A stretch of 64,000 nucleotides of DNA from Ectocarpus siliculosus (lineage: Eukaryota; Sar; Phaeophyceae; Ectocarpales; Ectocarpaceae): positions 62,493 to 126,492 of the forward strand of contig FN648598.1 of NCBI GenBank assembly GCA_000310025.1, given 5' to 3'. Below are positions 383-62,373 of the stretch, one piece after another. The translations under genes were made by a program, and so were the position numbers. The first letter of the stretch is position 1, and each line of letters opens with the position of its first letter. The notes under the pieces are model-generated. The model did not search any database and was not told the origin of the DNA. It was given only the letters and a program-made list of their open reading frames with translations.

Positions 383-3300
383 TTCAGGACTCGCAGCCTC
401 GCCCTCGCCCTCGCCCTCGTCCTGATCCTCTTCGTCTTCCTCCGGCGGGGCGGGCTCCATGCCCTTGAAAACGCGAATGTCGTCGAGGACTTTCTTGCTC
501 GACAGGTACACGTTTCCGGCCAGCGTTCCGTGGAAACCCGTGCCCACCTTTCATGTTACCGTACGGTACGGTATCCGATGGATACGTAAGTGCACAACCA
601 AGCGAGCGGGTTCGTTTGGTGTCAAATCGGGAGTGTGGGAACAGCAGGTCTGTAAAAAAAGGTCTCGCGTAGCAACCGTGCGGGCCGGCAGAGTTTCAGA
701 TATGCTACTTTAACACTTTCGTATCATCAGGCGTTAGCGCAACGCCTGTCGTTTTTATCGAACACACGGCTTGCAACGGCGTTGCGAGCCTGAGGCTACA
801 GGTGGGTGATCAGTCATCCGCCCCAAACACTCCACTCTGGTCTCAAGCCCCAAACACTCGTGTGGCTGTTATCGTCGCCCCAAGCCTCCATTTCCAACAG
901 AAGCGCCGTGACGTCGAAAACCACCACCGCCTCAATACGGACGGCCCTCTCAGACGCACATGACGACTACCATGACATAGAAATAAGCGACGAGACGTAC
1001 GTCTGCCCCCCCCCCCCCACCGCCCACCTTGTGCACCCTCTTCGTATCGGCATCCCAGACGTAGACATACACCCCGTCGGTCGCAGGGTTACAGCAACCC
1101 CCGCCTGCCGCCGCCGCTCCATCCTTGCGGCCGTTTCCACCACTACCACCAGCGCCTCGCCGGGCACTCGAGGGAGTCGAGCCACTTGTGCCTTCGGCCT
1201 CAGTGTCTAGGCGTGCCGGGAAAGACGCTGTCCAGGTGCCGGGTTTAGGGATCGAAACCTGCACCGCAACATCGGGGTTGGGAGAACACGCACATGGAAA
1301 AAAACTCGAAGACGAAGCCACCAACACGAGAGCGATGATGTTGGAGCCACCCAAAACTCTCGAGCTCGAGGTACAAACAGGTAGTACACCTCATCCCACT
1401 ATCCTACGACACACAGTCCGTATGCATACTCTACGAGCTTTCAGATTCCGCAATGAGGTACGCCACAGGAGCCAACAACACACACTGGAAGAAGCAACAC
1501 AAAAATGGCCGGCACCCGTGCTGCCTGCTGCGGCGCAACGGATCAACGAAAGAGGCCTCGCCCGGCTGCCTACTCCGGCAGAGAAAATCAAGCCCCACCT
1601 TGGGAGGCGTGGAGTGGTTCCTGAGTTGCTCCAGGGGCCCGCTAGCGGAAGGGGGAAGTGCCGGCACGTCCAGTTCCAGCAAGAGCATGGCCACCCGGAC
1701 CACGTCCGACACGGATCCCGTCGCAACCCCGAGAGACAGGAGCAACGCCACAGCCTACCCGGACCGATTGAGCCGTGGGGGGTTACGCGAACCGCCGAAG
1801 GGGGACGGGAAGAGGGGGAGGGGCGAGGGAGGGGGGGGGTACGCCAAACGTTTTACTTTGCTGCGTAACGGATCAAGGCTACTCTGAACAGGGGGTGGGT
1901 GTGCGTAGTCGAGCATAGAAAAGAGCAACGAGGCCATTCACGCTGTGTACCATGGTTTCAGAGAAACAGCTTGGTATCATACAGGTTAATGTTGAAGCAA
2001 AAGAGCACACGCGTTGAAAAGAACGGCACACATTGATCTTGAGTACAAGACCGCAGCAGAGAGCGCGACGTGTTTTCTTGCTGCCCAGGTGAGACACGAA
2101 GCTGCGAAATACATGTTTCGTGCGTGCCACCGCAGGAAAAACGTTGAAAGTACCCAACCGCAGTGGTAAATATCGCCGCAATCTCACCCGAAGTTGTAGT
2201 ATGATTAAACAAGTACCCCGGATCTCACACACGATCACCGTGACAGGCGGCAGGTGACGCTGTCAAACAAGGAGAATGTGCTTGGACAAAAAAATTAGGG
2301 TTCTGAAACGATAGTGGCATGGTTGCAACGTCGGGCGTACTCAGTCCTCTTCGCGTTCGGTCCGGATCTGAAAGTGATTTTGAGAGTTGGGCTAGAGTAT
2401 GCTATACCTGTGTTCTCTCGTCCTTGGACGATCCGCTCTCGACAGTCGCCACCCTCTCGGCCACCTCACGTACTTGAGTCAAAGTCTCGAGGTACGCCGA
2501 GGAGGACCCGACCTGCAACGGGTCAAAGCACCAAACACAAACAAGGCGTAAGCGTCAACGTTTGGACCCAACCTCCACATGTCCTCCCCCAAAAAAATAT
2601 ATATATGCTTCTACAAGTGACAGCTTGAGAAAAAAAATATGTAGAGTGAATATTTCGGTGGAAACGGATGCACATACTGGTGATGGCAAGGTGAAAAAAC
2701 ATGGAAACCTGCCCGAGGTCACTTGGCAATGACAACGGAGAAAATACGTGCTCGCAAGAACACAACACAAACCCGATAGTTGTACAATCACGCATGAACG
2801 GCGAAGAGCGTCCATTCCAGAGCCACTTGTACCTGTCCCAGAGCGAAAGGTGCGGATGCCTGAAAGAGATCCATGAGGGTTTGCGCCATGCTCGCGAACA
2901 GCCCTGGGACCGTGGCGCGAAGAGCCCCCATGAGCGTGAGCGACATGCGCATCGAAGCTGAGGTCAGGATTGCGGCTGGGTCCGACTCTCCCCGTCCCTG
3001 TAGAGGTGGAAAAGACAACAACGCACACACAGATACGCCAATTTTGTGTGTTAACTCGAGGTGCGGCTGAGCGAGCGATGCCGACACTATAATAGTTAGT
3101 TTGCACACCGCACCAGAATCCGCAGGCGTTGGAGAAAACTGCACTATAATACAACTACTTTTCTTCCTCGCCCGTCGAAAGGAAGACAAGCGATTGGGCT
3201 GGGTGCTGCACCCACCCACCTACCTCTTCGTTAGAAGAGGGAGGGAGAGCGAACGCCGATGAAGCAGCCAACGCTCCGGCGCCTCCCTTGCCACCCGCCT

Positions 3301-4493
3301 CCGCCTTCATCCTTCTCATCGTACGGAATGCTTGCCGCATGAGAGCCACATGTATGCGCTACATGCGAGAGCGAGTGCATGAGAGGGAGCGTTGGGGGGG
3401 AGGGGGGGTTGAGCTGGCAATAGACCGATAAAAGCCAAACACTGAATAAGGCCAGGCATGGCACGAGACGTGTGGGGCAGGTATTCAGTACATCCAACTC
3501 CCGCTCCCAAGCGTATTACAAGTCTGGTTGCACCCGTCGCCAGAAACGAACGCATTCGCAATCTCTGGAGTCGCACCTCACAACGATGGTACTTGTATCA
3601 CACAACCACACACGCACATTTCGAAAGCGTCATCCGTTTGTAGCCGCACTAAGACTGAGGTAATTTCATTGGTCACCGGTTATAGCGCGGCGAATGCTAA
3701 CAGTAAAGACACTCCCGCGCACGCGCACACCTGAAACAATCTTGATCGCATCCGGGTCGCCGTGGAATGCGTCGAGGCTCGCAAGTAGCTCTCTCCCAGC
3801 AGGGGCGGGAAGTCCTCCACGCTCGTGCCCTCGCCGTTGCCCGTGTCTGCTCCCGCTGTTCCGTTAGGCAAGTCTTGCTGCGGTCTAAGCAGTTGCAGCA
3901 TGCGTCGAACGGCGTCTTGGCCGTGCAAGCCACCTACTCCGACGTCGGCCTCCGCTGACAGTCCGGGGGAGCCGTCATTTCCCTGGACCTTAAAGGGGGA
4001 GTACGGTGAGCGAGTGGCAGGATCGGAGGAGGACTATGAACAACAGAGGTCTCGGCAAAGGGCTCGATATGACTGTTCGTGAGATCAGTGCTCCTCAGCT
4101 ATGGATAAGCTCTCCTCCTCTATATCCCCCTCTGCCCTTACAGGGATGGCATCGGGGAAGTGGCCTCGACTGCCTTGGGTGGCGCAACTGTTTCATCTGC
4201 ACCTAACGTCCGCAATGGAAGGCGTCTGTAAGGTGAAAACACAATGTTCTTTTGCCACGGCCTGTCGAAAGCACGATGTGAGCTCTCCTACAGCCCATTT
4301 CCCTCCACCACTTGCCCACAACACTGCACCTGAAAGATGTCATACTACCGTACTCCGAAACCTAGGCTGGCCTGACGGTAGGCACCTGTTGACACCTCCC
4401 TCTTACCGGAAGCATCTCAGTCCCTTCATAGGGCGGAAGGCTGGTATACTCCTCTTCCAAGAAGTCGTCGTTGAACAGCATCGACCCTTTTAC
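383..4493 (-). CDS. Large multi-exon protein, family uncertain (giant HECT/ZZ-type scaffold suspected), partial
   Basis: Eight exons are supported on the minus strand, in transcription order 4493-4407, 4033-3731, 3358-3224, 2997-2833, 2512-2408, 1754-1599, 1258-1028 and 547-383. Each is bounded by AG/GT, each is a multiple of three, and all are open in one frame (449 codons). The product has Leu/Ala-rich helical stretches such as SVSDVVRVAMLLLELDVPAL and LFASMAQTLMDLF. Joining the last two exons gives VYVYVWDADTKRVHKVGTGF followed by HGTLAGNVY, a propeller-like 'IGTG..GT..GHVY' pattern I associate with very large ubiquitin-ligase scaffolds (HECTD4/MYCBP2 type). An acidic DEEDQDEGEGEGE run follows. 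The gene continues beyond the left edge, and its 5' end was not found. The exons are solid; the family is a guess. Confidence 0.6.
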
Positions 4494-6334
4494 CTGTCAC
4501 AGCGATTTAGCAAGGCGGTCACTCGAAAAGTTAAAACAGCAGGTGTGTGTAGGGATGAGCAGCTGGTCTACCGCACATGAGCGATTGCCCTGCGAATTAA
4601 AAAAAAAAACAGAAGACACCTTCTTGCTTTGCGACATTCCAAAAAGCAACCAATATCCCCCCGGCGACTACATAAAACAGAGGTACCTCTACCACCCCGC
4701 CTAGCAGGGAAAATACATGCTGGCGCGTGGACAACGCAGATAAATCTTCCGAACCCCTGGTACCAGGGGAAAATGATAATGTTCAATTGAGAGCAGGACG
4801 AGGGGTGCTTACCAACCCAAACAACCCGACACAAAGCTCTCCATTGGTAAGCGCTAGGTCACCTACTGTACGTGGGAAGCCAAGCCGCGGCGCAAGAGGG
4901 GGTTTGAGCTAGGTTGCTGTACGTGCAAGCCTAAGGGGTAAGGGCTAAGTCATCGTATGTAAGGCTAAGCTGCGGCGCAATAGTGGTGAAAACTACCAGT
5001 AGGTTGCTGTACACGAACTGCGATTTTCTGAGAAATCATATTCCGACAAGGAGACCACGACTTTTTCGGCCTACAGTAGTAGTCGGGAACACTAATACAA
5101 GGCAGAGGTGCGCCATGCCACAGCCGTACGTACGTAAGCACGGCGTGTGTTTTTCCTCGGACGGATTGGATCAGAAAGGCCTTTCGCATCGCTCTCCCCC
5201 CGTCGTTCTGTATTGATACGCATGTTTGGGGCATTTCCGCTTCTTCGTTCTGGTGTAGAACAGCATTGGCGTGACATTCCTGGTCTTCAGGGACGGACTA
5301 CTGCTGTACTGTACTTTACGTACCTCGTTCTCACGATGATGCGTCTACGTGTGCACCCAGCGTGTTGCTTGTACAAGCCTGCTGGTACTGCTGTCGCGCT
5401 AACTTGTCCATGTATTGTACCGTGGTCCCCTGCTGCTGCTATTGTATGGGTTTCTCTGTTTTATTCTAGATCATCGAGGCATCTGCGGTTGACTTCGTGC
5501 TGTGCCCCGCGGCCGTTCCCCGTATGCATACAATACAATACAGGAACAGTTATGCGTCGCTCAGGTTTAAATAAATCAAACGTAACGTACAGGCACTTGG
5601 TGCATCGCTGTGCACTCACCAGATGGGTATGGCGCATCAGACAGTGAAGGCTCTGCCGAAAACAAACAAACTTCTGTGAGGTGTGTATACCTTCAAACAA
5701 ACTCTCTCCGCAACTCCGAACTTCAAACACGTTAACCATTATATGTACGGTACCACATCTCCGTACACCTATTCGACGATCATGTCGCAAGCAAGGTCGG
5801 TCCTTCGACAGTTCAAACGCCCGCCGACTTCATTTAAAAAAAAAACACAACGCGCTGTACCAGACACAAACCTTAACCATGCAGCGAGCACTGCCGCCGC
5901 TCTACGCACATTTGTCACGTCACCTCGTCGGTTGTTGACCATGGTCAGTGCATAGGTACTGCTGTAGGCTCCACGAAAAATGGCCAGGTGTTGCTTGAAA
6001 AGCTCTATGCACACAATTTATTTGCTCAAGTCTTTACTTGTAGAGTTCTCACCGAAAGCCATTTCAAGTCTTCTTCCACCACATCAGCGTCATCGATTGC
6101 CACGCTGCCGGCATGCTCAAGCACATTGCCCATGCTTTTGCTGTGTTTCTCTTACTCTCTCCTCTCTCGTTCGTTCTCGTTCTCGCCAACCTGCTCACTG
6201 CTCACGCTCGCAAGCGTACGAGCAACACTTCAAGCGCGAAGAGCAACAAACGCGCCTGACACAAGTGTTGGGGCCAAAATGCCGAGCTGACGATTCTAAA
6301 GAATCCCCCAGCTCCAGTCGAGCTTCGCGTAAAC
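4494..6334. other. Stretch without a supported gene
   Basis: About 1.8 kb between the first recognised exon of the minus-strand gene and the first PPR gene. Short open frames exist on both strands but none has splice-bounded or conserved content. Upstream exons or the promoter of the minus-strand gene may lie here. The only structured element seen is the imperfect duplication at 4851-5015. Confidence 0.5.
4851..5015. repeat. Imperfect tandem duplication, ~75-90 bp unit
   Basis: Two related units, 4851-4925 and 4942-5015. Both contain a GCTAGGTCA/GCTAAGTCA start, a GC[CT]GCGGCGCAA core and an AGGTTGCTGTAC end. They differ by several substitutions and small indels. No coding or regulatory role is visible. 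Confidence 0.5.
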
Positions 6335-9300: not shown

Positions 9301-10216
9301 AGCACCTCAGAAGGAACATGGAGCAAGCAACTCCCGTGCGCAAGGAGTAAAATGATGTCCAGCAACACACGAGATGGCAACACCCGCACACGATTGCATC
9401 GTGGTCCGCGCCGATAACTTGTCATTTTCCATTTTTCGAACCTAAACGTGGCGTCCTGATTGTGCTATTTTGCCGTGTACTTGTGACGTTGCCATTACGG
9501 ATCCGGTGGTTGTCGGAGGTCGTGTGCATTTCATGTTGCTCTGAACCTCGCCGTTCTGTCGCAGTGTGGGAACTCAGGAGAATGGAAGCTCTGCATGAGC
9601 CTCATGGACCGCATGCGATCGGAGGGGATCACCCCCAACGCTTACAGCTTCAGTCCCCTCATCAAGGCTTGCGGCAAGGTACGTTGCGAACGCAGACTTG
9701 TCCTTTTCATGCGTGGTCTTTGTGACGGAGGCGAGACGGATGCCAACACACACATCGAAACAACGGCGGACGTGATGGGGAAGTTGCGAGAGGGACACCT
9801 GTTTATCGCCCGTGCCTCAACCAACAGACGAGACGAAACACCTTTCGACTTGGGTTCTTCATGTTTCAGCAGGAGAAGCTGGCACTCGCTCTTGTACCCT
9901 CCACGATGCTGTTTTGTGAATGACGTCGTCTTTGAGCTTTGAGGCCTTTCCTTGCCTTGTTCTGTAGCAACGTGGGAAAAGCATTGAGGCGATGTTCTGT
10001 GTCACGCACGGGGCTATTCTCGCTTCACCAAGACACGAGGACATTGCATGAAGAGTCAGGAATGACGAGTTGCGCTCGATCATTTCACACGGATTACGAG
10101 CACAGGGCATTCCGCACGCGCAGATGCTTCGACGTATCATGCAATTGAACACACCGACCGGGCCGGCCTGCGCCAAAGAGTACGGCATCACAGCGGCGGC
10201 TGCCTACTACAAGTAG
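6335..10216 (+). CDS. Pentatricopeptide repeat (PPR) protein A
   Basis: PPR proteins bind organellar RNA. Supported exons: 6335-6916 (N-terminal, Gly/His-rich, donor GTAAGT), one ending at 7797, then 8127-8232, 8503-8588, 8919-9024, 9565-9678, 9968-9993 and 10060-10216. Most introns fall at equivalent points of the 35-residue repeat. Spliced repeats include WREVLRLLDKMAEDGIPLNS, WREALALRDRMLSEGVRLDG, KNALLMLEDMVADGVRPDAI and WKLCMSLMDRMRSEGITPNA. The frame closes across each junction, for example CG|A TGG gives R-W. The last exon ends GITAAAAYYK followed by TAG. The start is uncertain: ATG at 6335 or 6446, the latter beginning MAFWFSRECVPW, could be a transit peptide. The stretch 6917-7650 probably holds one or two exons I could not fix. 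The weak donor at 9994 is tentative. Confidence 0.75.
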
Positions 10217-16924: not shown

Positions 16925-19900
16925 ATGCCTTCCTTCTCTAAGAGTACTCCCTTTTCGGTGGTGGCCACACGAAACGCTAGACCCACAGCCGCAACGATAC
17001 AGCTCTCCCTGCTTGTCCAACAAGCCATGCCCGCAAAACGACGACCTACGCCGACGAAGGCTGAAGGTAGCAGTGACAATGCAAAAAATGGCGTCAAAAA
17101 GGCCGCCGCCGCGGCAGCCAAGAGCCCTCCGCCATCAGCAGGCAAGAAGAAGAAGGCACCTCCACCCATCGCCGCCGCAGCCCACACATCCCGCGAGAAG
17201 GGCAAAGGAGCCTTCCTGGGCAAGGGCGGTGTGCTCACGCTAGGAGGTAAGACCTCTGGCGGCGGGCGTGGAAAGGGTGGGGGGCGTGGCAGCAACAGCT
17301 CCCCGGGGCGGGGCGGTCACGGTGGCCCCAAGAAGGGTAGGGGTGGTGCTGCGGGTGGACATGGAGCAGCGACGGCAACCAAAGCAGCTACTGCTGTTGA
17401 GGGCAGCAACGCGAGCTCAGAGGAGGACGGGGAGTCCGAAGATGGTGGTGAGTTGGACGAGATGGAGGAAAGCAGCGAAGACGGTAGTGAAGAAGAAGAA
17501 GAAGCGGAGCAAGTCACGGGCGCCAAGGCAAAGGCAAATAAGTCCAAACACGGCGGTGGCAAGAGGCAGGAGGAGGATTCTTCTGAAGGAGAGGAGAGCG
17601 AGCAAGAGCTGCAGTCCTTCATGGAAGCCTTCCCGGGGATGAGCAGCGACGAAGAGGAGGGGGAGGATGGGACAGGGTTGGGTGGGGCTGGCATGGTTAG
17701 CGATGGCAGCAGCAGCGATGACGCGGGGAGCGATAGTGATGAAGACGAGGAGGACGGCGGGCTGATGGATGTACGTTTGTCGCGTGTTGCAACAACGCGA
17801 GCATCTTATGTCAACAGCAGGACACATGTAAAGGCGTCGTATAGGTAGCGGCATTGACGCGTGGTTCGTGTGGTACAGACGTATCACTGTTTGTCGCGTC
17901 TGTTCTAGCACGTTGTACATCAGTAACCCCGCCAGACACGGTAGCTTCCTTCGATTTGCTGGTGATGGAATCAACTGGACGAACTCAAGGCATATACATG
18001 AGTTTTTTGTGTGGCCAGGCGTCAAGGGCTGGCTCTTTTTCGCAGAAATACCTCACTCGCTACCTTCCACAGACGTGCCCCTTTTGATCGCCTACAGTAG
18101 GGTTGCATGGCAATCAGATCGTCAAGTACATTTTCACTTTGTGTTGCCGGTTGTTGGTCCTGATTTTGAGAATTTATGCACCCTGTGCGGCTATCTATCT
18201 ATTCCTCTGATGTCCTGGTCACCACACCCAGGGGTACGGATTTGGACTTTGTGTTGGGTGTACAACCGATTCCTCGTCTCTGTCTTCTCACCATTTCGAA
18301 ACGGTTTTGTCTCTTGCCACAGATTGAGCGACAGTCGAAGGCCCTCGACAAGAAAGCAGCCAGGATGCAGGCTGAACTTCGTGACGAGGCGAAAGAAGGT
18401 CTCGAAAGGGATGTCTTGGAGGGCAGGGAGGCGTTGGGCCTTGTCCCTGCCGGAGAGGGGGACGGGGAGGAGGGGGAAGAAGGCCAGGAAGAGGAGGTCG
18501 TGCCTCCGCAGGTGCTCAAGGAGAGAATAGAGTCCGTCATCGAAGTTCTCAGCCAGTTTCAGGTGCGCCCACTTCCTGTGCTGCTGGTGCACAAACTTGT
18601 TGGCCCACAGTCGATTTTGTTGTGTCGAATTGCAAGATGCTGCGGTTGGAGTGAGGCGTTTCTTGGTGTTGGGAGGTACGGTCTGTTTGCTGGCTGAAGA
18701 CGGTCTTGCCTCTGAGACTCGGGTATTGCTGCTGATGCCGTCGGTAGTTTGCGATACGCGGCTGCTCTCTTCTGTCTGTCCACACCTCACTGATGATGAA
18801 GTGGTTGCGTAGCATGGCAACACCATCACTACGCTGTATTTGACACCCTTTGGCGACGTTCGCTTACCCATATCTGCCTTGCGTTGTCCGTCTGCTGTTT
18901 GGTACATACAGGAGAAAAGAGACCCCGCCTTATCGCGAGCAGATTACTTGGAACGCCTGGCCAAAGATCTGAAAGAGTACTACGGCTTCCTCCGAGAGCT
19001 GGTCGATATGTTTCTTCTCGTAAGTTGACAGCAGTCCCTCGTCCCGCGAAGCTACTGTAGTTCCAAACAAGATTCACCGGTGTGTGTTATTGTTGCTGTG
19101 GTTTTGAAACAACCGGTTTAGACCTCCGTTAATGGTTCATGCGTCTACTGCGCTCATGAAACCGGCAAGAGGCGCCAACATGGTGGGCGCAACCCAATCA
19201 AGGTGAAATTCTTCACTGACAGTTTGTAACCTTGGAAATACCATTTCTCATATGCTAATTATTTATTGAATGCCGCGGAGCATAAGCGGCACGTCCGACC
19301 TCGAACTATCCAACACGGCCAAAAGCTCACGGTATTGAACGAAAACCTCCCCGTGAATCGCTGGGTGGAATCTGTTGAGAATCGTCCTGTCCTTGCTCTC
19401 GAAGCTCTAACCGTGTCGTCTGGTTTCCCTCTTGTGCCTGTTTTTTCTGCAAATGACAATGAAGATGTTCTCTCCAGCGGAGTGCGTCGAGTTTCTCGAG
19501 GCGAGTGACAAGCCCAGGCCGCTTGTCATTCGCGCCAACACCCTCAAGACCCGCCGAAAAGACTTGGCAGAAGTGAGTCAGTCGCATTTCGAGGAGAATC
19601 TGGTTTGTCATCCTTTGTTTGTGGTTGCCGTCTGTTCTGCTCGTCGCTCCAGCTCACCAAGTATGTGTGGTGCATGTGTTCAGTATAGAATATTAAAATT
19701 TCTGTTTAAGGTCGCTTGTATGTATCCCGCAAGACGCATATCAGTCCAAGTATTTTGCTTTACGGCGCACTTGACCTGGCTAACGCGAGTCTTTTGATCC
19801 AACTTGTTTTGGGATTTATTTTTCTGAGACAACTCGAATCGTATTGTGTCATTGTTTCCTCTCCGTAACCCAGGCGTTGATCAAGAGGGGGGTCAGCCTC

Positions 19901-22900
19901 GAACCAGTGGCAAAGTGGTCCAAGGTCGGCCTCAAGATCACAGAGTCCCAGATTCCCATCGGTGCCACGCCGGAATACCTCGCGGGACACTACATGCTGC
20001 AGTCTGCTGCATCAATGTGTCCAGTGATGGCGCTCGCCCCCCAGCAGGTTCGTACACGAAAGAACTCAGCGAAATTATTCCCGAACACCGAAGCGGTCTG
20101 AAAATATGTTCGAAGTAGTCGATTGCAAGGATTGACATACACCGTTTGCTTCTTTGTTTTTGTGCGGGTTGATGTTTTCGTCTCACGTGTGTTGGTTTTC
20201 CTCGGTTCAGATAACCGTTGCCATGTAGATGCCTGCTCTCACCTTCAAACGTTCCGTCTACGCGTACATATATAGGTATGACGTGCCGTGGACCCATACT
20301 CAAAGCTCGATATCATGACAGCAACGAGAGATCCATTGGCGAAAAGCATGGAACGCACTTTCGAAATTATGTCATGTCTGTCGGTTTTGCCACCCTCATT
20401 GACTTGGAGAACTGAAAATATAGTAACAACCTTTTCAAGGGGGTGTGGTGTCTTGCGTGGAAGTCGGTACGCAGCTGCTATGTACTACAGGAACTGACGC
20501 ATGGCCACCGTAGGCGTCCCGGTCCTTGCTTACGCTCGTTATTTTTGTTCTTATCTTGTACGCATACCTATTTTATATTTTGCTTGCACTTTGCCGCTGT
20601 GTTGTTGGTGACTCGTCTGCAGGGAGAGCGGGTGCTTGACATGTCGGCCGCCCCCGGTGGCAAGAGCACGTACATCGCCCAGCTCATGCGGAACACCGGA
20701 GTCGTCATCGCGAACGACCTTCGCCCACAGGTCAGCACTTAAGGGGAGGGTGTGTTGAAGTGCCTCAAGGCACGGGACCTTGTCACAGCAATGGTCTGGC
20801 GTTGTCGCTGTCGTGATTCCTGTAGCCACCACCATCGCTGTGCTCTGTGTGGTCAGGGTTTGTGAAAATGGCAAGTGAGTATGCTGTTGACACAACGCGG
20901 GCGGGTCCGTGCTCGCCTGCCTCCACCTGACGTTTGTGTCAAGTATTTCGTTGTTCCGAAGCCACAACACTGGGACGCTTGCTCAACTTCTTTCACTCTA
21001 AATATAATAGTGCCTCTCTCTCACCACGGCGGCTGCTGCCCCCACGACCTCCTGCTAACATTCTGACGCTTTGCTCCCTCCCTCCACCGCAGCGACAACG
21101 GGCGACGGTTGCCAACCTGCACCGCCTCGGCGTGAGGAACGCCCTGGTGTGCTGCCACGACGGCCGCAAGATTCCCTTCAAGGGCGTCGACAGGGTGCTG
21201 CTAGACGCACCTTGCTCCGGTAAGCCGTCCGGTATCGTCTCTCAAGCACTAGGGAAGTGGTTGGGTTGCATAGCGTATGGACGTGTTGATTGGCCGTGTC
21301 TTGTGTGCACGCGCTGGAGAGGGTGGCGTTACGTGGACGGCTTTGTAGCTCGAGATGTGCACGGTATTGCGTCTTCTCAATCGTAAACCTCGAGCGCTCG
21401 CGGTTGCTGTGACGTACTACTGTTGCAGCGAACCGTCTGCCCGCTTCCAATCTTTCGCCATCGGTGTTTGCAGTTGTGCGACCCGTTACAATCCCCACAT
21501 GTGCAACTCCTGAAGTTTGTAAATGATATTCCAAACCCCACGGTGTTTGTCGTGTGGCTTCATTCCAGGGCTGGGGGTGATCTCACGCGACCAGTCGGTG
21601 AAGATCCAGCGTACCACCAAGGACATCCTCCGCAGCTCGCACTTGCAGAAGGAGCTTCTCTGTGCTGCGGTCGACGCCGTGAGTGCCAAGAGCGCCACGG
21701 GAGGGGTCATCGTGTACTCGACCTGCTCAGTCAGCGTGGCTGAAAACGAACAGGTGAGGACGCGAAAAATATTATGTTGTCGAGCTGATTTTTTTTTCAG
21801 TCAACAGCTGACAATTGTCGATTGACTTTGCAGAACTAACTCTTGCCAACCTTTTGGGGACAGCTGAGTGCTTACAAGTGTATCGTGACGTCGTACCTTT
21901 TTTTTTTCTATTTTCCAGCTTTGCACGGTAAAATGGTGTCTCCTATGAGGAATTGCTTCAAGACTGGAATTACCGTCTGAGAAATCCCTGCGGAAAAAAC
22001 TTCGAAGCGGCTGAGTCTGAGGAGGTACCCGTCGCATTCACTTTCACAAACACCTTTGAATCCAAACGCTAGATAAACGTTACCTTGTGTAAACCGATTT
22101 GAACGCAACGTTCGAGAAGATCAGGTTTCTCCCGTTCAACGTGTCCACTCGAGAAGGTCCAATATTCTGCTTGTACCATTCCGGGCCTGCATTCCACCAA
22201 ACATGTCGCGTCGCAATTGCATGATAATTGTTTCAATCTAGTTGTTAAGAGAGAGCCCGATGATTTTAGCACAGGTTATATCTACATTTTTCACCTTAGC
22301 AGAAAAACATGCTGAGAGTACCGTCGACTTCCTTATGAGGGCCTCTTTTCCCTTGCGTTTGATGAGGAGTCATGTTCCTGAGCGATATACCATGACCACA
22401 GCACAACCAAGAAGATGACATATCATCGCGCGGGCACACATCCAACACCATACGTACGTACGGATATTCGTTATGTCTTGACTTAGCTTTTCAAGTTGGA
22501 GTTTTTTTCTGGTTTCTTGTCGGGGCTATTGTATTGCGAGCATTGCTTCAAACCGGAACTACCGTGTGAGAAAACACGTTCGAGGTGGCGAGATATGCGA
22601 AGGTCAAGTCCTACATTGTACCATATTTTTTGTTGAATTTTCTCGTTTTTGTTTGTTTTGTTGAGTTCCGTAAGATGCTTTGGGGTACGCACACGGAGTG
22701 TGTGAGGTGTACACAGTTTTTTCCAGTGTCGAGTGCCTCCTGCTTGGAACGTTGTGTTTGACTGCAAGTACCGTGTTTTTTTGTTTCGCTACTCTCATCT
22801 CCTGTGAGGAATTGCTTCAAGACTGGAATTACCGTCTGAGAAAACCTTGCGGAAAAAACTTCGAAGCGGCTGAGTCTGAGGAGATGACCATTATTAACTA

Positions 22901-25900
22901 CCCTTGAAATTTTTTGAGTCCTTCTCTTTTCGTATATTGTATACCCCACCATGGCACATGACCCAAACGGTGCATCGCCCAAGGTATTTCGTTTGTCGCC
23001 TGTCTGAAGACGTATCACCCAGACCTCATCTGCGGAAAGATACTCTTCAAGTCAAGTCATAAATTGAGACACCAACCAAGGGAAATTACTTGAGAACACG
23101 AAAGATTTCACACAGGCCTACCTCCTCATTGCTGACAAAAACCACCAATACGATCGTATTGCCCGCGTAGTTGTGTTTCCTAGGGATAGGCGGTTGTTGG
23201 GAACAGTCAGATATCGCAAGTTTTCTAACCATTGTTGAGTTACGCGAGTGAGGTTACCGCGGATTGCTTGTTGCGAAGACGAAGAAGGCGCCCGATGATT
23301 ATAACTCACGTTACATCTACATTTTTTATCAGAGCATAAACTCGTGCTGAGATACCGTCGACTTCCTTATGAGGGCCTCTTCTTCTACATCTTTTTATGT
23401 AGGAACACGTTCATTTACCTCGTTAGGGTTGATTAGGACCGACTTATGGTATATTTTTAATTCTGTTTGATTGTTTTTTATTTTTGTGCCAATTTACTCT
23501 CCATCTTGCTTCTTTTGGAATGTCGATGCCTTGTGCCGGCCTATACTCCCGTGATGAATAGCTTCAAACTGGAATTACCGTCTGAGAACAAACGTGCGGA
23601 AAAACCTTCGAAGCGGCTTAGTCTGAGGAGAATCGTCTTGCCTACTTCAGCGCGTCCTAGCGTTCTCTTTTTTTTTCTGATGTGTGTGACCAATGCCAAT
23701 ACATGCGTTCAGTTCATTTGGACGATGAAGTGCATTAAATAGGGAGGCTCATCCTAATTGTGTGTATCACTGTCTCCCGTGATGAACTGCTTCAAACTGG
23801 AATTACCGTCTGAGAACAATCCTGCGGAACAAAATTCGAAGCGGCTTAGTCTGAGGAGAGTTATGCATATATCTTGTCCTTAATCTGCCTTGTGCTCCGT
23901 ACAACAGCCTCTGGGTATTGCGACTTCAAGCGTTCGTTCCCTGTAGATTTATCCCGTGATGAACTGCTTCAAACTGGAATTACCGTCTGAGATCAATCCT
24001 GCGGAACAAAATTCGAAGCGGCTTAGTCTGAGGAGAGTTAAGCATATATCTTGTTATTTCTGTCTTGACAGTATGCCCTGTACAAAGTCTTACATGGGTA
24101 TTGCGACTTCAAGCGTGTCCTGTAGATTTTTCGACGTTGGATTTATCCCGTGATGAACAGCTTCAAACTGGAATTACCGTCTGAGAACAATCCTGCGGAA
24201 TAAACTTCGAAGCGGCTTAGTCTGAGGAGAGTTATGCGTAAATCTTGTTGTTATTCTGTCTTGACAGTATGCCCTGTACAAAGTCTTACATGGGTATTGC
24301 GACTTCAAGCGTTCCCTGTAGAGTTCTTCGACGTTGGATTTATCCCGTGATGAACTGCTTCAAACTGGAATTACCGTCTGAAAACAATCCTGCGGAACAA
24401 AATTCGAAGCGGCTTAGTCTGAGGAGAGTTATGCATATATCTTGTTTTTTCTATCTTAACAGTATGCTCTGTGCAAAGTCTTATATGGGTATTGCGACTT
24501 CAAGCGTTCCCTGTAGATTCTTCGACGTTGGATTTATCCCGTGATGAATAGCTTCAAACTGGAATTACCGTCTGAGAACAATCCTGCGGAACAAAATTCG
24601 AAGCGGCTTAGTCTGAGGAGAGTTATGCATATATCTTGTTGTTACATCTATGCTGCGTAAGGGTATTGCGACTTCAAGCGTCCCCTGTAGCTTCTTCCAC
24701 TTTCGATTAGGTTGCACGAGGTACCTGAGTCCTAGAACATCACTTCGAGGCCTGTTCATGTCGGCCATGGTTTGGCGGTTTTTGTTGCTGTAGTCTCCCG
24801 TGATGAATAGCTTCAAACTGGAATTACCGTCTGAAAACAACCCTGCGGAACAAACTTCGAAGCGGCTTAGTCTGAGGAGAATCAATAGCAGTAGTGTAAG
24901 TTATATCGTGTATACAATCACAAAAGGCCAGCTTGTTCAATATTTTTGTGAGCTATAGCTTTAGTTTTACTTGTCACACAAGCGAGCAGAACCGTAGGCC
25001 ACCAGCATGGCGTTGTGTAGCACGAATGGCTGCTGCAAAGGTGTACCTCGTGCGTGGTTCTGTCACATACCCAGCCTGTGTGCCGGCTGTATTTGGCCGG
25101 ACCTACACAGGCGTATCTCCCATGAGGAACTGCTTTTCAAGACATCCGTCTGAGACCTAAAGTGCGGATGAATCGGCTGAGCCTGAGGAGAAGACAAAAT
25201 ATTTTGCGGTAACATGTTTGAACCATTACGGTACGTAGCACTGTGAAGTACTTGGTATGAGGGGAGTAGACCTTGAAAAATACGGAACGACCTCCAGTAG
25301 TAGGTAGAAGGCCCGTGTTGGTTCTTGGTGTATTGGTATCTCCTGTGAGGAATTGCTTCAAGACTGGAATTACCGTCTGAGAAAACCTTGCGGAAAAAAC
25401 TTCGAAGCGGCTGAGTCTGAGGATACATCCGAACCAACATGGTGCCTGGTACATCGTACTTTAATTTAGTTGAGGTGGATGTGCTAGAAGTCATGTGCAT
25501 GCTTTGTTTCTGCTTGAAATTCGGATGTCGTGTAGAGTGCAGTGCGCCATGCGTAGCCAAAGAGAGGGAGAGAGAGAGAGAGAGCACCCGATGATTATAA
25601 CACACGTATATCTACATTTTTTTCTCAGAGCTACAATTGTGCTGAGAGTACCGTCGACTTCCTTATGAGGGGCAAATCTCTTTCGAACTTTACGCAGAAA
25701 TACTGCACATGGTGGAACCTAAATGCAGTCTTGTTTTTCCATTTTTTGCCTCAAAGTCAGATAACAGTCCTTTTTCGATTATGTCTTGAGCAAATGAATA
25801 CCAGAACCCGAACACGAACACATACGATCGTTCTTCTCATTGTGTGTTGGGGATTGGTTGCATTGCCCGACACGCAACGTGCAGAAACAGAGGGCAACCG

Positions 25901-28197
25901 ACTCTGAACCAGAACCTAGACCGTGTTTATTCCATGGTAGTGTTGTGCCTGTGTTCTGCGTGCTGAGAGCGGGGAGCTCGTTTCCTATGATGAATTGCTT
26001 CAAACTGGTATTATCATCTGAGCAATTGTATGCGGCGAAAAATTGACGTCGACTTACGTTTAAGGATTGCACCCCCCCCTCTCCACGTTCTAGCGCCGAG
26101 ACCTTCTTGAAGTGTCCGTGATTTTGTGGATGTCATCGTCCGCAAGAACCGCACATATTTTTGTGCACGGCGAACGGGCAACTCGACCACCTTAAGTAAA
26201 TACAGCAAAAGGCTTCCGCCCTCAAGAGCAGCATGTTGAAATCAGGGCAGCGTTTTGATCCCCGTCCTGTGCCGACGGTTCAAAACAAGTCTACATAATT
26301 TTCTCAGCACTTGAAAACGAACATGTTTCGCAGTGGGGGTCATCGAAATATATGCTCTACAATCGCTGCTTGGTGGCCCGTGTCTCCTGCCCGCCCATAT
26401 TCCGTCCCGCAGGTGATCGAGTACATCCTGCAGAAGCGATACGTTAAGCTTGTGCCCACCGGGCTGGACTTCGGCCGGCCCGGTTTCAGCCGCTTCCAGG
26501 AGAGAAGATTCCATCCCAGCATGAATCTGACCAGAAGGTGCGCTAGGAATCTCTCTAGAATCGCTGTTGGCACTTTGCCCAAACGTTTTGCGGTTCGGCT
26601 GCAGAGCCATGTATACGGTGACTTGCTTGTGATGTTCGAACTTTGGAGTCACTGCCTCGTTCTTCGTTACGGCTGCGTGTCGTTTGTGTGCTGCAGACAC
26701 ACGACCGTTTTGCTTGATGGTACTTGAGCCAATTCAGACGTTGTCTTTCTGGTGGTGGGCAACCCATCGGTACAATACAACCATAAATAGGGGGGTGTAT
26801 TTAAAGAAGAGCGTGTAGTTTGGTGCACCACCGATATCATCAGCAGGTCTGTACATGCACAGCTCCCACCTTTCGCTTGAACCTTCTAACGTGCGTTATG
26901 CCATTGCGCCCGATTTTATCATCAGGTTTTACCCTCACGTGCACAACATGGACGGTTTCTTCGTGGCGAAGCTGAAGAAGTTTGCGCCGGGAGAGAGGAA
27001 GGCGGTATCCACGGGTGCGGGAGTACCCGACAAGGATGCCCCGGAAGCGAACGAGGCTGGTGCTGCCGGTGCCGCCGACGAGATGGACGTCGACTTCAGG
27101 TTCGACCGTTTCCTCCTCCTGTTGCTCTTGTTTCCTTTCAACTTCACGGGCGCTCCGTGCTACACAAGTACTACTAGTTGCGTTGGTGACGAACTGTTTC
27201 GATAGCGTCAAATATTTGGCTGGCTGCAGGTTGCATTCAACAACTTTCAAACCTTGTCTGCTTGGTGTCTGTCTGTCCATTGTATGTGTGTACATCAGCG
27301 GGAGCGACGAGGACGAGGACTCCAAGACAAAGCGAAAGCGTGCTAAGAAGGAGGCCAAGCGTGACGCCAAGAACAACGCAAAGGCCCAAGAGGCGGTAGG
27401 AGCCGAGGTGAGCGCTAGCCTGGGCACGTTTGTTCGCGGCCGACGCAGGTCCTGCGTAGGAACAACGGATTTATTTGTGCAATAAGGAGTAAATTCCTCA
27501 TGTTCCGGTTCCTTCAAGTGAGCAGTCTTCGATGGCCCCCAAGTAACTAATTGAAAAGGTCATACCAGTACTTTTATTTTAATCCCTTCGTCGTGGTTTA
27601 AAGATGGATGTACGATGATCCAGTCAGAAGACCATTTGGTGAGGCACACGGGTGGTTTTGCTGAATTTTGCTGCAGTCGTCTTCTAAATCCGACGTTCAT
27701 TGATCGCCCACCCCACTATTTCCTTGGCCTCCTCTTTCCTTCAGATCAAGGAAGTAAACAGCGATGAAGAGGAAGACGGAGGCGAAGAATCAAGGCCTGC
27801 GGCAAAGAAATCGAAGCCCGATCCCACCGCCGCCGCAAACGGCCACAGCACACCAGGCAGAGGCAGAGGTAGAGGGGCTGCTCGTGGAGATGGCGGCGGA
27901 AGAGGGGGGAGAGGCTCCGCAGGATCACCCGGTCGGGGTGCAAGTCGAGGGGGCCGTGGAAGATCGTCTTCTGGGGGACGTTCGTCAGGAGGGTATGCGT
28001 CGGCCGGCCGAAACCCGGGCGGGTTCGGCGGGGGGCGTTCGTTTGGCGGGGGCAGGGGGGGCGGGAGAGGCCGAGGGAGGGGGGGTCGCGATGGCGGTCG
28101 CGGTGGTGGAGGACGAGGAGGCCGTGGTGGTGGGCGTGGCGGTGGTCGAGGGAGAGGAGGGGGGAGAGGTGGAGGTAGAGGGCGAGGACGGGGGTAG
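16925..28197 (+). CDS. NOP2: NOP2-type 25S/28S rRNA (cytosine-C5)-methyltransferase
   Basis: Nucleolar SAM-dependent enzyme that makes m5C in large-subunit rRNA and is needed for 60S assembly. Twelve exons: 16925-17770, 18323-18562, 18912-19019, 19465-19572, 19874-20047, 20623-20730, 21093-21219, 21569-21753, 26413-26537, 26926-27099, 27299-27407, 27745-28197. They sum to 918 codons plus stop. In order: Lys/Gly-rich and acidic N-terminus, [47 protein letters not shown] motif [14 protein letters not shown] (motif IV) and STCS (motif VI), both with Cys, then [25 protein letters not shown], a Lys/acidic linker and an RGG tail of about 110 residues. A second in-frame ATG at 17027 (MPAKRRP) may be the nuclear start. 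Intron 8 (21754-26412) carries the snoRNA cluster. Confidence 0.93.
21939..22025 (+). ncRNA. Box C/D snoRNA copy 1 (snR77/SNORD65-like, type I)
   Basis: Box C ATGAGGA 21945-21951, box D' CTGA 21977-21980, box D CTGA 22017-22020, CTCC/GGAG closing stem. The guide ACTGGAATTACCGT before D' pairs with the 18S rRNA 530 loop. By the fifth-nucleotide rule the target is the U of CGGUAAUUCC (known family target: yeast Um578, human Um627). It lies about 190 nt into the NOP2 intron, in sense orientation. Confidence 0.85.
22256..22346 (+). repeat. Second intron repeat family, copy a
   Basis: About 90 nt starting CCCGATGATT, with a TATCTACATTTTT core, GCTGAGAGTACCGTCGACTT and a CCTTATGAGGGCC end. Shared with 23291-23379 and 25587-25670. 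Unrelated to the snoRNA unit; function unknown. Confidence 0.7.
22535..22602 (+). pseudogene. Degenerate box C/D snoRNA copy 2
   Basis: Recognisable from GCTTCAAACCGGAACTACCGT, but box C is lost, D' is GTGA, the guide has two changes (CCGGAACTACCGT) and the 3' half with box D has decayed. Probably non-functional. Confidence 0.6.
22796..22886 (+). ncRNA. Box C/D snoRNA copy 3 (type I)
   Basis: Box C GTGAGGA 22804-22810, D' CTGA, box D CTGA 22876-22879. The terminal stem is the best of the set: CATCTCC (22796-22802) pairs perfectly with GGAGATG (22880-22886), extended by two pairs relative to the other copies. The guide is identical to copy 1. Confidence 0.88.
23291..23379 (+). repeat. Second intron repeat family, copy b
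   Basis: Same element as at 22256, with ATAACTCACGTTACATCTAC in the first half and one base missing in GAGATACCG. Lies between snoRNA copies 3 and 4. Confidence 0.7.
23545..23631 (+). ncRNA. Box C/D snoRNA copy 4 (type II)
   Basis: First copy with the perfect box C GTGATGA (23551-23557). D' CTGA and box D CTGA (23623-23626). The 18S guide is intact. Closing stem CTCC/GGAG. The internal segment (AAACGTGCGG) differs slightly from copies 5-10. Confidence 0.86.
23773..23859 (+). ncRNA. Box C/D snoRNA copy 5 (type II)
   Basis: Model copy: TCTCC (23773-23777), C, box C GTGATGA (23779-23785), guide CTGGAATTACCGT, D' CTGA, a C'-like TGCGGAA, second guide ending GCGGCTTAGT, box D CTGA (23851-23854), GGAGA (23855-23859). 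The five-base-pair terminal stem is perfect. First unit of the tandem array. Confidence 0.9.
23950..24036 (+). ncRNA. Box C/D snoRNA copy 6 (type II)
   Basis: Box C GTGATGA 23956-23962, D' CTGA, box D CTGA 24028-24031. Guide intact. The 5' stem strand is TTATCC, so the closing stem has an internal mismatch. Same mismatch in copies 7, 8 and 9. Confidence 0.83.
24144..24230 (+). ncRNA. Box C/D snoRNA copy 7 (type II)
   Basis: Box C GTGATGA 24150-24156, box D CTGA 24222-24225, guide intact. It carries TAAACTTCGAAG rather than CAAAATTCGAAG between the boxes. Starts 194 nt after copy 6. Confidence 0.83.
24341..24427 (+). ncRNA. Box C/D snoRNA copy 8 (type II)
   Basis: Box C GTGATGA 24347-24353, D' CTGA followed by A rather than G, box D CTGA 24419-24422, guide intact. 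Starts 197 nt after copy 7. Confidence 0.83.
24535..24621 (+). ncRNA. Box C/D snoRNA copy 9 (type II)
   Basis: Box C GTGATGA 24541-24547, D' CTGA, box D CTGA 24613-24616, guide intact. Last unit of the regular ~195-nt array. The following spacer is longer and diverged. Confidence 0.83.
24794..24880 (+). ncRNA. Box C/D snoRNA copy 10 (type II)
   Basis: TCTCC / GGAGA terminal stem restored, box C GTGATGA 24800-24806, D' CTGA, box D CTGA 24872-24875, guide intact. Separated from copy 9 by unrelated spacer sequence, so conservation here is of the snoRNA itself and not of the tandem unit. Confidence 0.87.
25116..25191 (+). pseudogene. Diverged box C/D snoRNA copy 11, rRNA guide lost
   Basis: Box C ATGAGGA (25122-25128), D' CTGA, box D CTGA (25183-25186) and a TCTCC/GGAGA stem all remain. 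The 18S guide is replaced by TTTTCAAGACATCCGT and the element is about ten nt shorter. It is either a pseudogene or a copy that acquired another target. Confidence 0.6.
25337..25427 (+). ncRNA. Box C/D snoRNA copy 12 (type I)
   Basis: Box C GTGAGGA 25345-25351, D' CTGA, box D CTGA 25417-25420, guide intact. Between the boxes it is almost identical to copy 3, although seven type II copies lie between them. The closing stem differs (GTATCTCC with GGATAC). Confidence 0.85.
25587..25670 (+). repeat. Second intron repeat family, copy c
   Basis: Same element again, preceded by a GA-run (25560-25584). Lies between snoRNA copies 12 and 13. The 3' end CTTCCTTATGAGG is conserved in all three copies. 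Confidence 0.7.
25981..26068 (+). pseudogene. Degenerate box C/D snoRNA copy 13
   Basis: Box C ATGATGA (25987-25993) and D' CTGA (26018-26021) survive. The guide has mutated to CTGGTATTATCAT and the box D position reads TTAA. Lies about 340 nt before the NOP2 exon 9 acceptor. Confidence 0.6.
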
Positions 28198-29557: not shown

Positions 29558-46614
<17,057 letters not shown>

Positions 46615-49252: not shown

Positions 49253-52200
49253 TTAGGGGTGCCCGATCCTTTGGTTGTTATTTAGAATCATAAGTAAGTC
49301 CGACTTTGCACGTATATTACATTGGATAAAGAAACGCACGGCAAACAACGTGAGGCGCACCTTTCTCGCCTTGAAGTACGTGTTCGAAAGGGCAGATGAT
49401 GGTCTTATGCCGTCCTTCTTCAGCGCAAACACAACCTTCAGAGCGGCATCCGGACGTTGCGCCCGACCACACCTGCAACGATCAACGAGATGACATTGGA
49501 TCGTGCTTTGTGAGCACCTTGTCGCGAACAATGCAAGCAAAGGAACGCTGGAAAACGGCACAGGGGCCACGGCACTTACACGTATAGTAGCCCACAGTAC
49601 GCGGAGAAAAGGTCTTTCTTGAGGTTCTCCTGCGGCCGGCGGGTTTGCTGGGCGGAAATGCCATTGACAGCATCTCGTTCGTCGGAGTCTTGCACCAAAG
49701 CGGGTCGCACACACCGTCGCCAGAACGAGATGGCGCCCTGCGAAAAGGGAATTTTCCGTTAGGGCAAAGAAACCGCAGCAATCAAAAGATATACCGCATG
49801 TCGGATGTGATACCGAACGTGCAATTCTTGATTCCATTGTACACTGCTCACAGCCTTGACGACTGCAACATGATCAAAGGCGAAGATCCAGCCGGTGCCG
49901 CGCTTGGCCGTTTATAAACACGGAAAGAGGAAAGAGCGCATGCTTGGTACCATGGGAGTGGCTGCAGGCGATCCTGAAACCGAGCGAGACGCACAGCGGC
50001 TAGCAATGACACGCACCAACAATCTTGGCTCACCGTGAGATCAGCCCCGAAGCCAACCAAGACCGCGTTGCAGATTTTGCCATTTAAGTGAATATCTCTC
50101 TCCGTGGCCTCCATATACAGCTGCGTGCACAGCTCTGTCGATGAGACTTGCTCTGCGCCGCCATCCGCAGCGCGTATCCCTTGATACCCAGGCCCACTTC
50201 TCGGCGTCCGCCACCATTGCTTCACGTGGCGCCCAGCTCTCCGCGCGTCCTGGAAACAATTACAACGGCCCAATTAATCAATTAGTGACAATCAATAGAT
50301 GAACGCTCGAACGAAGCACTGGGAAGGCTGTATGGTGCTTCGTCTGAACATGGGGAGTAGAAATCATCGCTGGCCCAGCGCAAGCTTCAAAATATTCATC
50401 ACGTTTCCTGTCGTCGTACAGTAGCGACTGCGGCATGTATGTCTCAGGTACACCACGCTGCCATTTCGCGTCTGCGGCTCTGCTGCACATTGTACATGTG
50501 TTCTGTGCCAACTCACCTCGGCCCGGGTCACCCCCGATATTACGGTGGTGTACGTGAAAATATCAGGAGAAACTCCACAGGCATCCGGCAACGTCTTCAT
50601 CTCTTCCAGCAACAGCAGGGCTGCCTCTGCTCCAATGACTCTGTCTAAGCCAGCACTGCTTGACCCTGATCGAACAGAAGGCCAACACGACACAACCGCC
50701 ATGTGCATGCAATGCAGTGCAGTGCAGGGTTGTTAAAAAATAAGAAGCGGAAGAACACATGGAGCATACATACGCTTGAGTATCCGTGCCTATTGACTTG
50801 AACGCGCTTGATCCACTCTTTGAAACGACGACCAAATGATTTGAGATGCTGCAACCGTCGAATGGGTACAAAAAACTTGTTTATCTCATATAGACCAAAA
50901 CGCAGTCCTTACCGTGAGACGATGGCCCATCAACGACAGAGGCGAACGGCGCTTGTTTTGAGCCAGCCGGCCGAGAAGATGTCGTCACGGCAGTCACCTC
51001 CGGAATATCCTCCACGCTGCCGACATCTTCAATTTCCTGCCGGGCGATCAATCAGCTCCACGTGTTAGGTATTCCGACAGCAACTACCGGCAAACGTCTC
51101 TTGCGGTCGTCCCGACCACCCTGCTTCACACATACAACACATCCAGGGCAATGTGGTGGTGCTGCCTACACTAAAGGAGGCCAATGGTCCCAGCTCGGAT
51201 CGACATCGCGCGCGGGTGCTTCAATCGCAGACCCAATCGCGTCAGAAGTGAAATGAGTTTGTAAAGGACACAGTTGGGTCCAAAAGACAAGGTATTACCA
51301 CGCGTTGCTGCGTTCGCACAAACACCAAACAACAAAGACTCTCCCTTACGCCTCGGCACACGAAAACATGAAACGTTGGTGCTAGGTGCTATGCTGTCTG
51401 TCACCACGAGGGTACATCTAGAAGGTCGAACGAACGACTCCAACTACCCTACTTGAACAATCCGTGGGGTGAGCTCGATCGCTTGACGAGAGACCTATTT
51501 CGCAGGGAACAACCAGCAAACGCATGGCATGATAGCTCTCGCCCTGCAAGATGCCGATGAAACGAGTAATGCATAAAATCCAGTGGGCAATGAAGAGTTC
51601 GTTAATCACCTCAAACACCCATGGATCTTGCACAAGGGCATATATGAGCGAGTTGTAAGAAAACACGTCAGGTTCCATGCCCTCCAGGGCCTTGATGCGT
51701 TCCATCACTTGCAAGGCTCCGTACACGTCGCTATGATCTCCGAGCGCTCTGATGCAGCTGTTGAGGAATGTCAACGACGGATCAATGCGCAGCTTCCTCG
51801 CAGTCTCCATAACGTTGTACACATCCTCTCGGCTGAACTGCAGTCGGACCAGAGCTGCCAAGGTGATGCTGTGTCGGTGAATCGTCGTACATCGTCATGG
51901 GACACCAGGACCAGGCTGGCAGTTAGTGGTGGTGATGCGACACGAAACAGCAGTGCCAATCGTGCGGTTGACAGAGATGACGCACCACGGTAAATGTATC
52001 CGCAGAAACGTAGAATTTTACTCAAACATCCGCAGGCTGCTTTCTACAACATCCTTCAAACCGCTGTAACCCAGCTTCACAACATGTTGCCGGACATTGG
52101 CGTAGGTGTACTGCTCCCAATTTGAGTTGGCGGCTCCAAGCAAACGCGGGTCCGTGATGGTTTTGTACGCCTCTGCAGGTTTACAAGCAGCGGACTGCTT

Positions 52201-61700: not shown

Positions 61701-62291
61701 CGTGTTCCGGGCGATTCCGATTGCAAGTTGTTAGCGATCTCCTCTTCCTTCCATCTCGTTATGCCATCTGCTAGCCTATTCTCCACGCCCGGTACATGCT
61801 CGCCTGAAAACACCAACCCCCAATCGTCTCCAAAGCTCCCATCATCCTCATCAGTGCCCCTACCCTCGCCTTCTTCTCCCCCCCCCCACACACTTGTTCA
61901 CCCACGACACGGCGCTTTCGTTGTCCGCCCTCATCATCACCGCCTCCCCTTTCCGCTCCGGCCTATCCCCCTTCGAAATCACCATCACATACGCCGTCAT
62001 CGCCATCGCCATCAGTTCTAGCACGTTGATGCTTATAAAGTCCCCTTCTCCCTTCTGCCTCGCCCTGATCGTCCTTCCTTGTACCTCCTCCGGCAACTCG
62101 TACCTCCAGAACACCCTCGTTTCCATGCAACCCTCCTCAAACGCTCTCATTGACGCATCCGAAAACCAGCTCCTCGAATGAACTTGCTTGGCAAAGCTGA
62201 ACGACGCCGCCGTTATCTTACTGCCCACCTCCCCCGCCCCTCCCCCTAGAAACCACCGCCACCACCCCACCTCTGCCATATAAACTCCCAT
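61571..62291 (-). pseudogene. Retroelement RNase H domain, frameshifted
   Basis: Frame 62291-61860 contains WFSDASMRAFEEG (first Asp), NVLELMAMAMTAYVMV (Glu) and MMRADNESAVSWVNK (second Asp), the DED pattern of retroelement RNase H. A second frame, 61891-61571, continues with VFSGEHVPGVENRLADGITR, the His/Asp C-terminal motif. The junction is at the C-run at 61881-61890, a likely slippage point. Confidence 0.7.
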
Positions 62292-62373
62292 GTCAGCTTC
62301 ACTGCCTTGCGTGCTTGCGCCTTCTTCCTATGTCTGCCCCACGCGTCCCCCCCTCCGGCTCGTTCCACCCCAT

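Follow-up and report, generated by a model that had tools for sequence, protein, structure and literature searches.

The decoding-centre uridine of 18S rRNA that corresponds to yeast U578 is methylated across distant eukaryotes, namely, yeast, human, Arabidopsis and Dictyostelium, and one of its guides, HBII-135, is also named SNORD65. Guides for this site belong to the best-comparable snoRNA systems: excerpts of PMC3511168 list Um578 with snR77, Um627 with HBII-135 and Um580 with AtsnoR77Y, and Um571 with Dictyostelium CD21 appears as the equivalent site in a list drawn jointly from excerpts of PMC3511168, PMC8817022 and PMC11542601. In Drosophila, the pseudouridine synthase gene mfl (Nop60b) carries four isoforms of the box C/D snoRNA DmSnR60, one per intron (excerpt of PMC1821038). 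Plants and Chlamydomonas commonly carry snoRNA families made up of several genes (excerpt of PMC7671301), and several snoRNAs per intron as well as local duplication have been described for plants, Chlamydomonas and Plasmodium (excerpts of PMC7671301, PMC2656528 and PMC5122169). For brown algae, no paper on a snoRNA array was found among the excerpts returned by a literature search, which contained little on brown-algal snoRNAs beyond computer prediction: one study of Ectocarpus worked with predicted snoRNA loci that add up to 88,311 bp (excerpt of PMC4513859), and these loci may contain arrays of the kind described here.

In this study, we analysed a window of 64 kb (the whole stretch of DNA under consideration, C127:62493-126492) from a 189-Mb assembly of 492 contigs. 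We are confident in reading intron 8 of its NOP2 gene as an intron-hosted box C/D array, whose excised units would guide methylation of the 18S U578 equivalent and which appears to evolve by birth and death.

The host intron, the A units and their predicted 18S target

The NOP2 exon model consists of 11 exons (17027-27407) with GT/AG ends at every intron, and its product scored 308 bits against TIGR00446 nop2p (cut-off, 210). The closest named relatives in a protein search were brown-algal NOP2 proteins, from Laminaria digitata (92% across the full 486-residue query), Sphacelaria rigidula (85%) and Hapterophycus canaliculatus (94%, covering 68% of the 486-residue query). Intron 8 (21754-26412, plus strand, ends GTGAGG...CCGCAG) lies between exon 8 (21569-21753) and exon 9 (26413-26537), both likewise on the plus strand in the exon model. 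It measures 4659 nt versus 199 to 575 nt for nine other introns and is about eight times as long as the next-longest of the ten measured.

Intron 8 contains 13 copies of an 85-nt unit, here numbered A01 to A13 by their order along the intron, all on the plus strand between 21939 and 26064. Ten are intact, and three are decayed or altered. Type 1, with the box C GTGATGA, comprises A04 (23545-23629), A05 (23773-23857), A06 (23950-24034), A07 (24144-24228), A08 (24341-24425), A09 (24535-24619) and A10 (24794-24878). Type 2, with RTGAGGA, comprises A01 (21939-22023, ATGAGGA), A03 (22798-22882, GTGAGGA) and A12 (25339-25423). Box C of the intact copies is exactly GTGATGA in 7/10 and carries one substitution (RTGAGGA) in 3/10, and both D' (CTGA) and box D (CTGA) are kept in all ten. 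The C' position reads TGCGGA in 10/10, a weak and partial likeness to RUGAUGA; the C' box is often degenerate in box C/D snoRNAs. Among the remaining copies, A02 (22541-22608) has neither box C nor box D and GTGA in place of D', A11 (25116-25190) possesses the boxes and a 5-bp stem with the U578 guide lost, and A13 (25981-26064) is diverged, with an altered guide, a degenerate box D and a match to snoZ7, a family related to snoR77Y, at 24.5 bits (E = 0.44). These counts bear out the preliminary description of 13 sense copies in one 4.66-kb NOP2 intron, ten of them with boxes C, D' and D, and the TIGR00446 score and the exon model agree on the host. Searched with a covariance model made from these copies, the 64-kb window yielded the 13 and nothing more up to E = 5, the matches of the 13 themselves being given by construction.

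No Rfam family reached its gathering score in the 64-kb window. At a permissive threshold, the search of the intron returned snoR77Y (RF01178) as the best family for all ten intact A copies, with scores of 34.3 to 40.7 bits (E = 2e-5 to 8.3e-4) that lie below the gathering score of 52; A10 scored highest (40.7 bits). Genome-wide, with 62/6854 candidates scored, snoR77Y matches at E <= 0.001 numbered three, with 1.9e-4 for the best, and each of them lies in intron 8.

The segment immediately upstream of D', CTGGAATTACCGT, is identical in ten copies (24818-24830, plus strand, in A10) and forms 13 bp with the 18S stretch GCGGTAATTCCAG, 12 of them Watson-Crick pairs and one a G-U pair. The SSU used as reference (1800 nt) belongs to a eukaryote that contaminates a bacterial record and is not the alga's; on it, the guide pairs with positions 574 to 586, and D'+5 falls on T578 (U578 in yeast numbering). 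The 12-base perfect complement plus one G-U pair proposed at the outset was thereby confirmed on the reference SSU, as was the assignment of the fifth base upstream of D' to the Um578/Um627 site, which is listed in excerpts of PMC3511168 and PMC8817022. Six SSU records were retrieved with a 31-mer that spans the target stretch, so that the presence of this stretch in all six is by construction. A pattern search of the 189-Mb assembly did not find the motif of the alga's own 18S. Two 5.8S-like fragments (75 and 47 bits) were observed at about 4339-4480 of a C4 locus and about 2770-2932 of a C1 locus, with no SSU or LSU beside them. Four viral contigs share an 18S 17-mer and have no rRNA within, and the guide motif was absent from viral contigs.

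Several controls addressed chance. When the 64-kb window was scanned crudely for boxes C and D combined with a 4-pair stem, six matches resulted, five in intact A copies and the sixth in A11; neither strand of the window had any outside intron 8, and 300 shuffled introns yielded a mean of 0.013 matches and a maximum of 1. Complementarity alone is weaker evidence: among the window's 373 other CTGA sites, one surpasses the guide in its score against the SSU (13.0, at 47576) and another reaches 12.0, and under loose scoring 4/200 shuffled guides did at least as well as the real one. The weight of the evidence lies in boxes, spacing, Rfam family and known target coinciding. In the 189-Mb assembly, the 17-mer of guide plus D' occurs 10 times, always in intron 8 and never on the opposite strand, and a 24-mer allowing 3 mismatches was found at nine places, again all in intron 8. 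Although some units form a regular tandem array, as a dispersed repeat or minisatellite might, we consider it extremely improbable that such a repeat mimics a snoRNA by chance, given that the motif is absent elsewhere in the 189 Mb and that box, stem and guide rules converge, together with the Rfam matches, on a known conserved target. Judged from its sequence, the cluster is real and its intact A units are very probably functional box C/D snoRNAs, predicted to guide the 18S U578 equivalent.

The units might instead act chiefly in cis on NOP2, through splicing or intron stability, and not on rRNA. Such host-gene roles are known for some snoRNAs (excerpts of PMC11028025 and PMC10324135), and the eightfold excess of intron 8 over the next-longest of the ten measured introns would suit them, but the complementarity of the conserved guide to 18S is exact and falls on a methylation site that is itself conserved, and we regard a mainly cis-acting role as very unlikely.

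Further rRNA targets were considered and rejected. The best rRNA duplexes for a second guide upstream of box D in the A units were matched by 53/200 and 101/200 shuffles, and scores for new rRNA targets were reached by 20/200 shuffles for A11 and by 152/200 for A13. By eye, a weak match of 6 to 7 nt was also seen between the A unit and 18S just upstream of the main target.

Family B, closing stems and probable release from the intron

A second family of three C/D-like copies of about 88 nt, here named B, lies in intron 8 on the plus strand, each copy 3' of a type-2 A copy (A01-B1, A03-B2 and A12-B3). B1 (22255-22342) has ATGATTT as box C, ATGA as box D and a CCC/GGG stem; B2 and B3 are located at 23290-23376 and 25586-25672. 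Common to all three are ATGATTA/T after CCC, an internal CTGA and the 3'-terminal GTCGACTTCCTTATGAGGG, and a 24-mer from the 3' end has three occurrences in the assembly, all in intron 8. The family snoZ13/snR52 (RF00335) matched B1 and B2 at 22.4 and 20.6 bits (E = 1.2 and 3.4; gathering score, 47), B3 not being among the matches listed. Genome-wide, with 54/7310 candidates scored, snoZ13 gave nothing at E <= 0.1, and its control was also without a match. The 3' guide CTTCCTT adjoins box D and pairs over 7 bp with 18S, which places D+5 at A420; the best-scoring duplex of family B is with the LSU and does not go beyond shuffles (22-25/200). Minus-strand matches to HOTAIR_3 that overlie the B copies (24.0, 15.0 and 14.8 bits versus a cut-off of 80) were taken as chance, the 24.0 bits over B1 exceeding the snoZ13 score there. 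From these features, family B probably represents C/D snoRNAs of uncertain target. With family B interleaved and the guide lost or altered in A11 and A13, the array is not of a single specificity, and the claim that it is has to be withdrawn.

Closing stems of at least 4 contiguous pairs were found in A01, A03, A04, A05 and A10, i.e., in 5/10 intact copies, and in A11. The stems of A06 to A09 and A12 are short, with three UCC/GGA pairs, one mismatch and then a further pair. Attributing closing-stem pairing to all ten copies was thus generous, as five of them have three contiguous pairs before a mismatch. In the aligned closing and internal stems of the A units, no compensatory double changes were seen.

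Duplexes between the 40-nt 5' and 3' flanks, including the core stem, beat shuffles at P < 0.05 in 10/15 A and B copies, and flank complementarity reached this level in 6/10 intact A copies. A12 shows a 9-bp flank complement (TGTTGGTTC/GAACCAACA). Flank complementarity was not above shuffles in A11 or in A06 to A09 (P = 0.17 to 0.92 for the latter four), and outer flanks without the core stem gave P <= 0.05 in just 4/15 A and B copies. All flank, spacer and unit-copy shuffles were simple letter or block shuffles.

For the array to work as a source of guides, the NOP2 pre-mRNA would be transcribed and spliced, and the units in intron 8 would fold via the C/D k-turn and presumably bind the common C/D proteins. 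Since exonucleases alone would be unable to free inner units, we infer that the A units are probably cut from the intron by an endonuclease acting between them. Each of the ten intact units would then direct fibrillarin to the 2'-O of the 18S U578/U627 equivalent, a uridine that would sit in a 530-loop-like helix of the small subunit, and with many copies each host transcript would be expected to deliver more of one guide. A 15-mer, TTGCGACTTCAAGCG, was observed in five spacers of the young array formed by A05 to A09 (at 23918, 24101, 24297, 24492 and 24666), the remaining spacer sequence being divergent; it is a possible candidate for a processing element.

Divergence within the array and guide copying elsewhere

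A05 to A09 constitute a young tandem array with start-to-start distances of 177 to 197 nt and homologous spacers. With gaps uncounted, its units differ at 30/850 compared letter pairs (3.5%) and its spacers at 127/877 (14.5%), the likeness of the units partly reflecting the youth of this tandem array. Outside it, A03 and A12 are identical (85/85), and A01 shows three differences from them; likeness among the 100-nt flanks of A01, A03 and A12 was not above shuffles (P = 0.07 to 0.95). Selection on old duplicates, short-tract conversion and copying of the exact unit would each fit this pattern. Spacers between A and B copies showed homology in 0/36 region pairs (none beat all 200 shuffles).

These data bear on whether the array is mostly a set of relics, in which one or two expressed units suffice and the others are passengers of tandem duplication without dosage value. 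Decay or alteration is plain in three of the 13 copies, A05 to A09 are a recent array of about 177 to 197 nt per repeat with homologous spacers, and A06 to A09 lack flank complementarity, all of which such passengers would show. However, units are about four times less diverged than spacers inside the same young array, and A01, A03 and A12 are 82-85/85 identical despite unrelated flanks, so that we consider an array made up mostly of relics unlikely, albeit worth keeping in mind. Under birth and death, which we favor, A05 to A09 would be young duplicates, A01, A03 and A12 older copies held by selection or homogenisation, and A02, A11 and A13 copies that are decaying or being re-aimed.

Closely spaced guide copies were also found at other snoRNA places of the assembly. 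U14 (RF00016) gave four matches at two places (C16:6155500-6165400 and C61:72300-82200), all under the gathering score and with 100/1831 candidates scored. The copies are paired, 957 nt apart at one place and 582 nt at the other, and the repeats are confined to the snoRNA (118 nt at 97% and 124 nt at 96%); the pairs are identical at 113/116 and 110/115 positions and have no flank likeness. In the flank-duplex test, box ends of U14 were set one base off, and the U14 values are rough. Adjoining one U14 pair is an 81-nt C/D-like unit (ATGAGGA, CTGA) in two copies, 81/81 identical and with weak 5'-flank likeness (P = 0.003); the box C variant ATGAGGA is thus also present in a unit of the genome unrelated to the A units. 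SNORD36 had one match above its cut-off (C24:568000-577500), near which a repeat search found a 60-nt C/D-like element in four copies, two of them identical, with a fifth candidate. SNORD36 and this repeated family, whose members share a ACAAATCTCA stretch, lie at 2999-5256 of the locus, near glycine-rich coding repeats. A genome search for SNORD18 gave no match, nor did its control. As the two U14 places and the SNORD36 locus show, guide RNAs are habitually duplicated nearby at each of the three further snoRNA places examined, and among these four NOP2 intron 8 ranks as the largest.

The identity of A03 and A12 over 85/85 positions with flanks that show no likeness, the 81/81 identity of the 81-nt unit and the U14 pairs (113/116 and 110/115, without flank likeness) would all be expected if snoRNAs were amplified by retroposition, i.e., as RNA-derived copies, and not by DNA duplication or conversion. 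Against this speaks that target-site duplications above chance were found in 0/11 units tested and no poly-A tail was noted, that DNA tandem duplication plainly accounts for part of the array and that the 81-nt pair retains its weak 5'-flank likeness; moreover, gene conversion or selection would produce the same picture. Retroposition therefore strikes us as a rather improbable route. We would similarly offer only as speculation, with little expectation that it holds in full, that brown algae copy guide RNAs as units with exact mature ends, by RNA templating or short-tract conversion, so that identical or near-identical copies arise next to their parent amid unrelated flanks (as in A03/A12, the 81-nt pair and the two U14 pairs), and that intron 8 is an extreme case, a decoding-site guide tuned in dosage.

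Other features of the window were noted in passing. Pentatricopeptide-repeat matches lie at 9487-9942 (plus strand) and 51418-51894 (minus strand). On the plus strand at 36553-46060, weak matches to DEAD (E = 0.15), HTH_61 (E = 0.11) and HHH_5 (E = 0.0097) follow one another in this order, and the gene is perhaps a HELQ/POLQ-like helicase, a name guessed from these matches. On the minus strand at 60681-63677, frames were seen that by eye resemble a reverse transcriptase (KMDVKSAFRQIPVDP) and a tyrosine recombinase (HSGRIGGAT); Pfam returned Phage_integrase at E = 0.17 in one of three of these retroelement-like frames and nothing else. ARAGORN found no tRNA-like elements in the window.

Comparison with known guide systems

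The array offers a testable case of copy-number amplification for a guide to one decoding-centre uridine. Should most copies prove to be expressed, one could study whether methylation of the U578 equivalent is limited by guide dosage, how ten snoRNPs leave one intron, and how guide arrays arise, homogenise and disappear.

With snR77, snoR77Y and HBII-135 (Rfam clan CL00057), the A units share the guide upstream of D' and the 18S target, as far as excerpts of PMC3511168 describe them; they differ from these RNAs in scoring 34 to 41 bits where the gathering score is 52 and in occurring as ten intact copies in one NOP2 intron. The B copies resemble snoZ13/snR52 in a possible 18S guide with D+5 at A420 and in a weak model match for 2/3 copies, but stay far under the gathering score, pair with 18S over just 7 bp and have off-consensus boxes C and D.

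In its hosting, the locus is closest to Drosophila mfl, since in both cases a gene for an rRNA-modification enzyme harbors one C/D methylation guide in more than one isoform. The preliminary description had called a tandemly amplified single-specificity cluster hosted by an rRNA methyltransferase gene unusual; mfl is a precedent for the link between host and guide (excerpt of PMC1821038), and what is left of the claim is the notable copy number. The mfl gene has four copies, one per intron, with a 28S target, whereas the NOP2 array has at least 10 in one intron, with an 18S target. The related claim that an amplified cluster is unusual holds for ten copies in one intron but must be weighed against the families usual in plants and Chlamydomonas and the local duplication at three other places in this genome. 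According to the excerpts available, clusters in plants, Chlamydomonas and Plasmodium contain mixed guides or few copies, whereas intron 8 has one guide in 10 intact units. The kind of RNA, the 18S target and hosting in an intron of a ribosome-biogenesis gene are already known from these systems, and the notable feature of NOP2 intron 8 is the copy number of one guide in a single intron.
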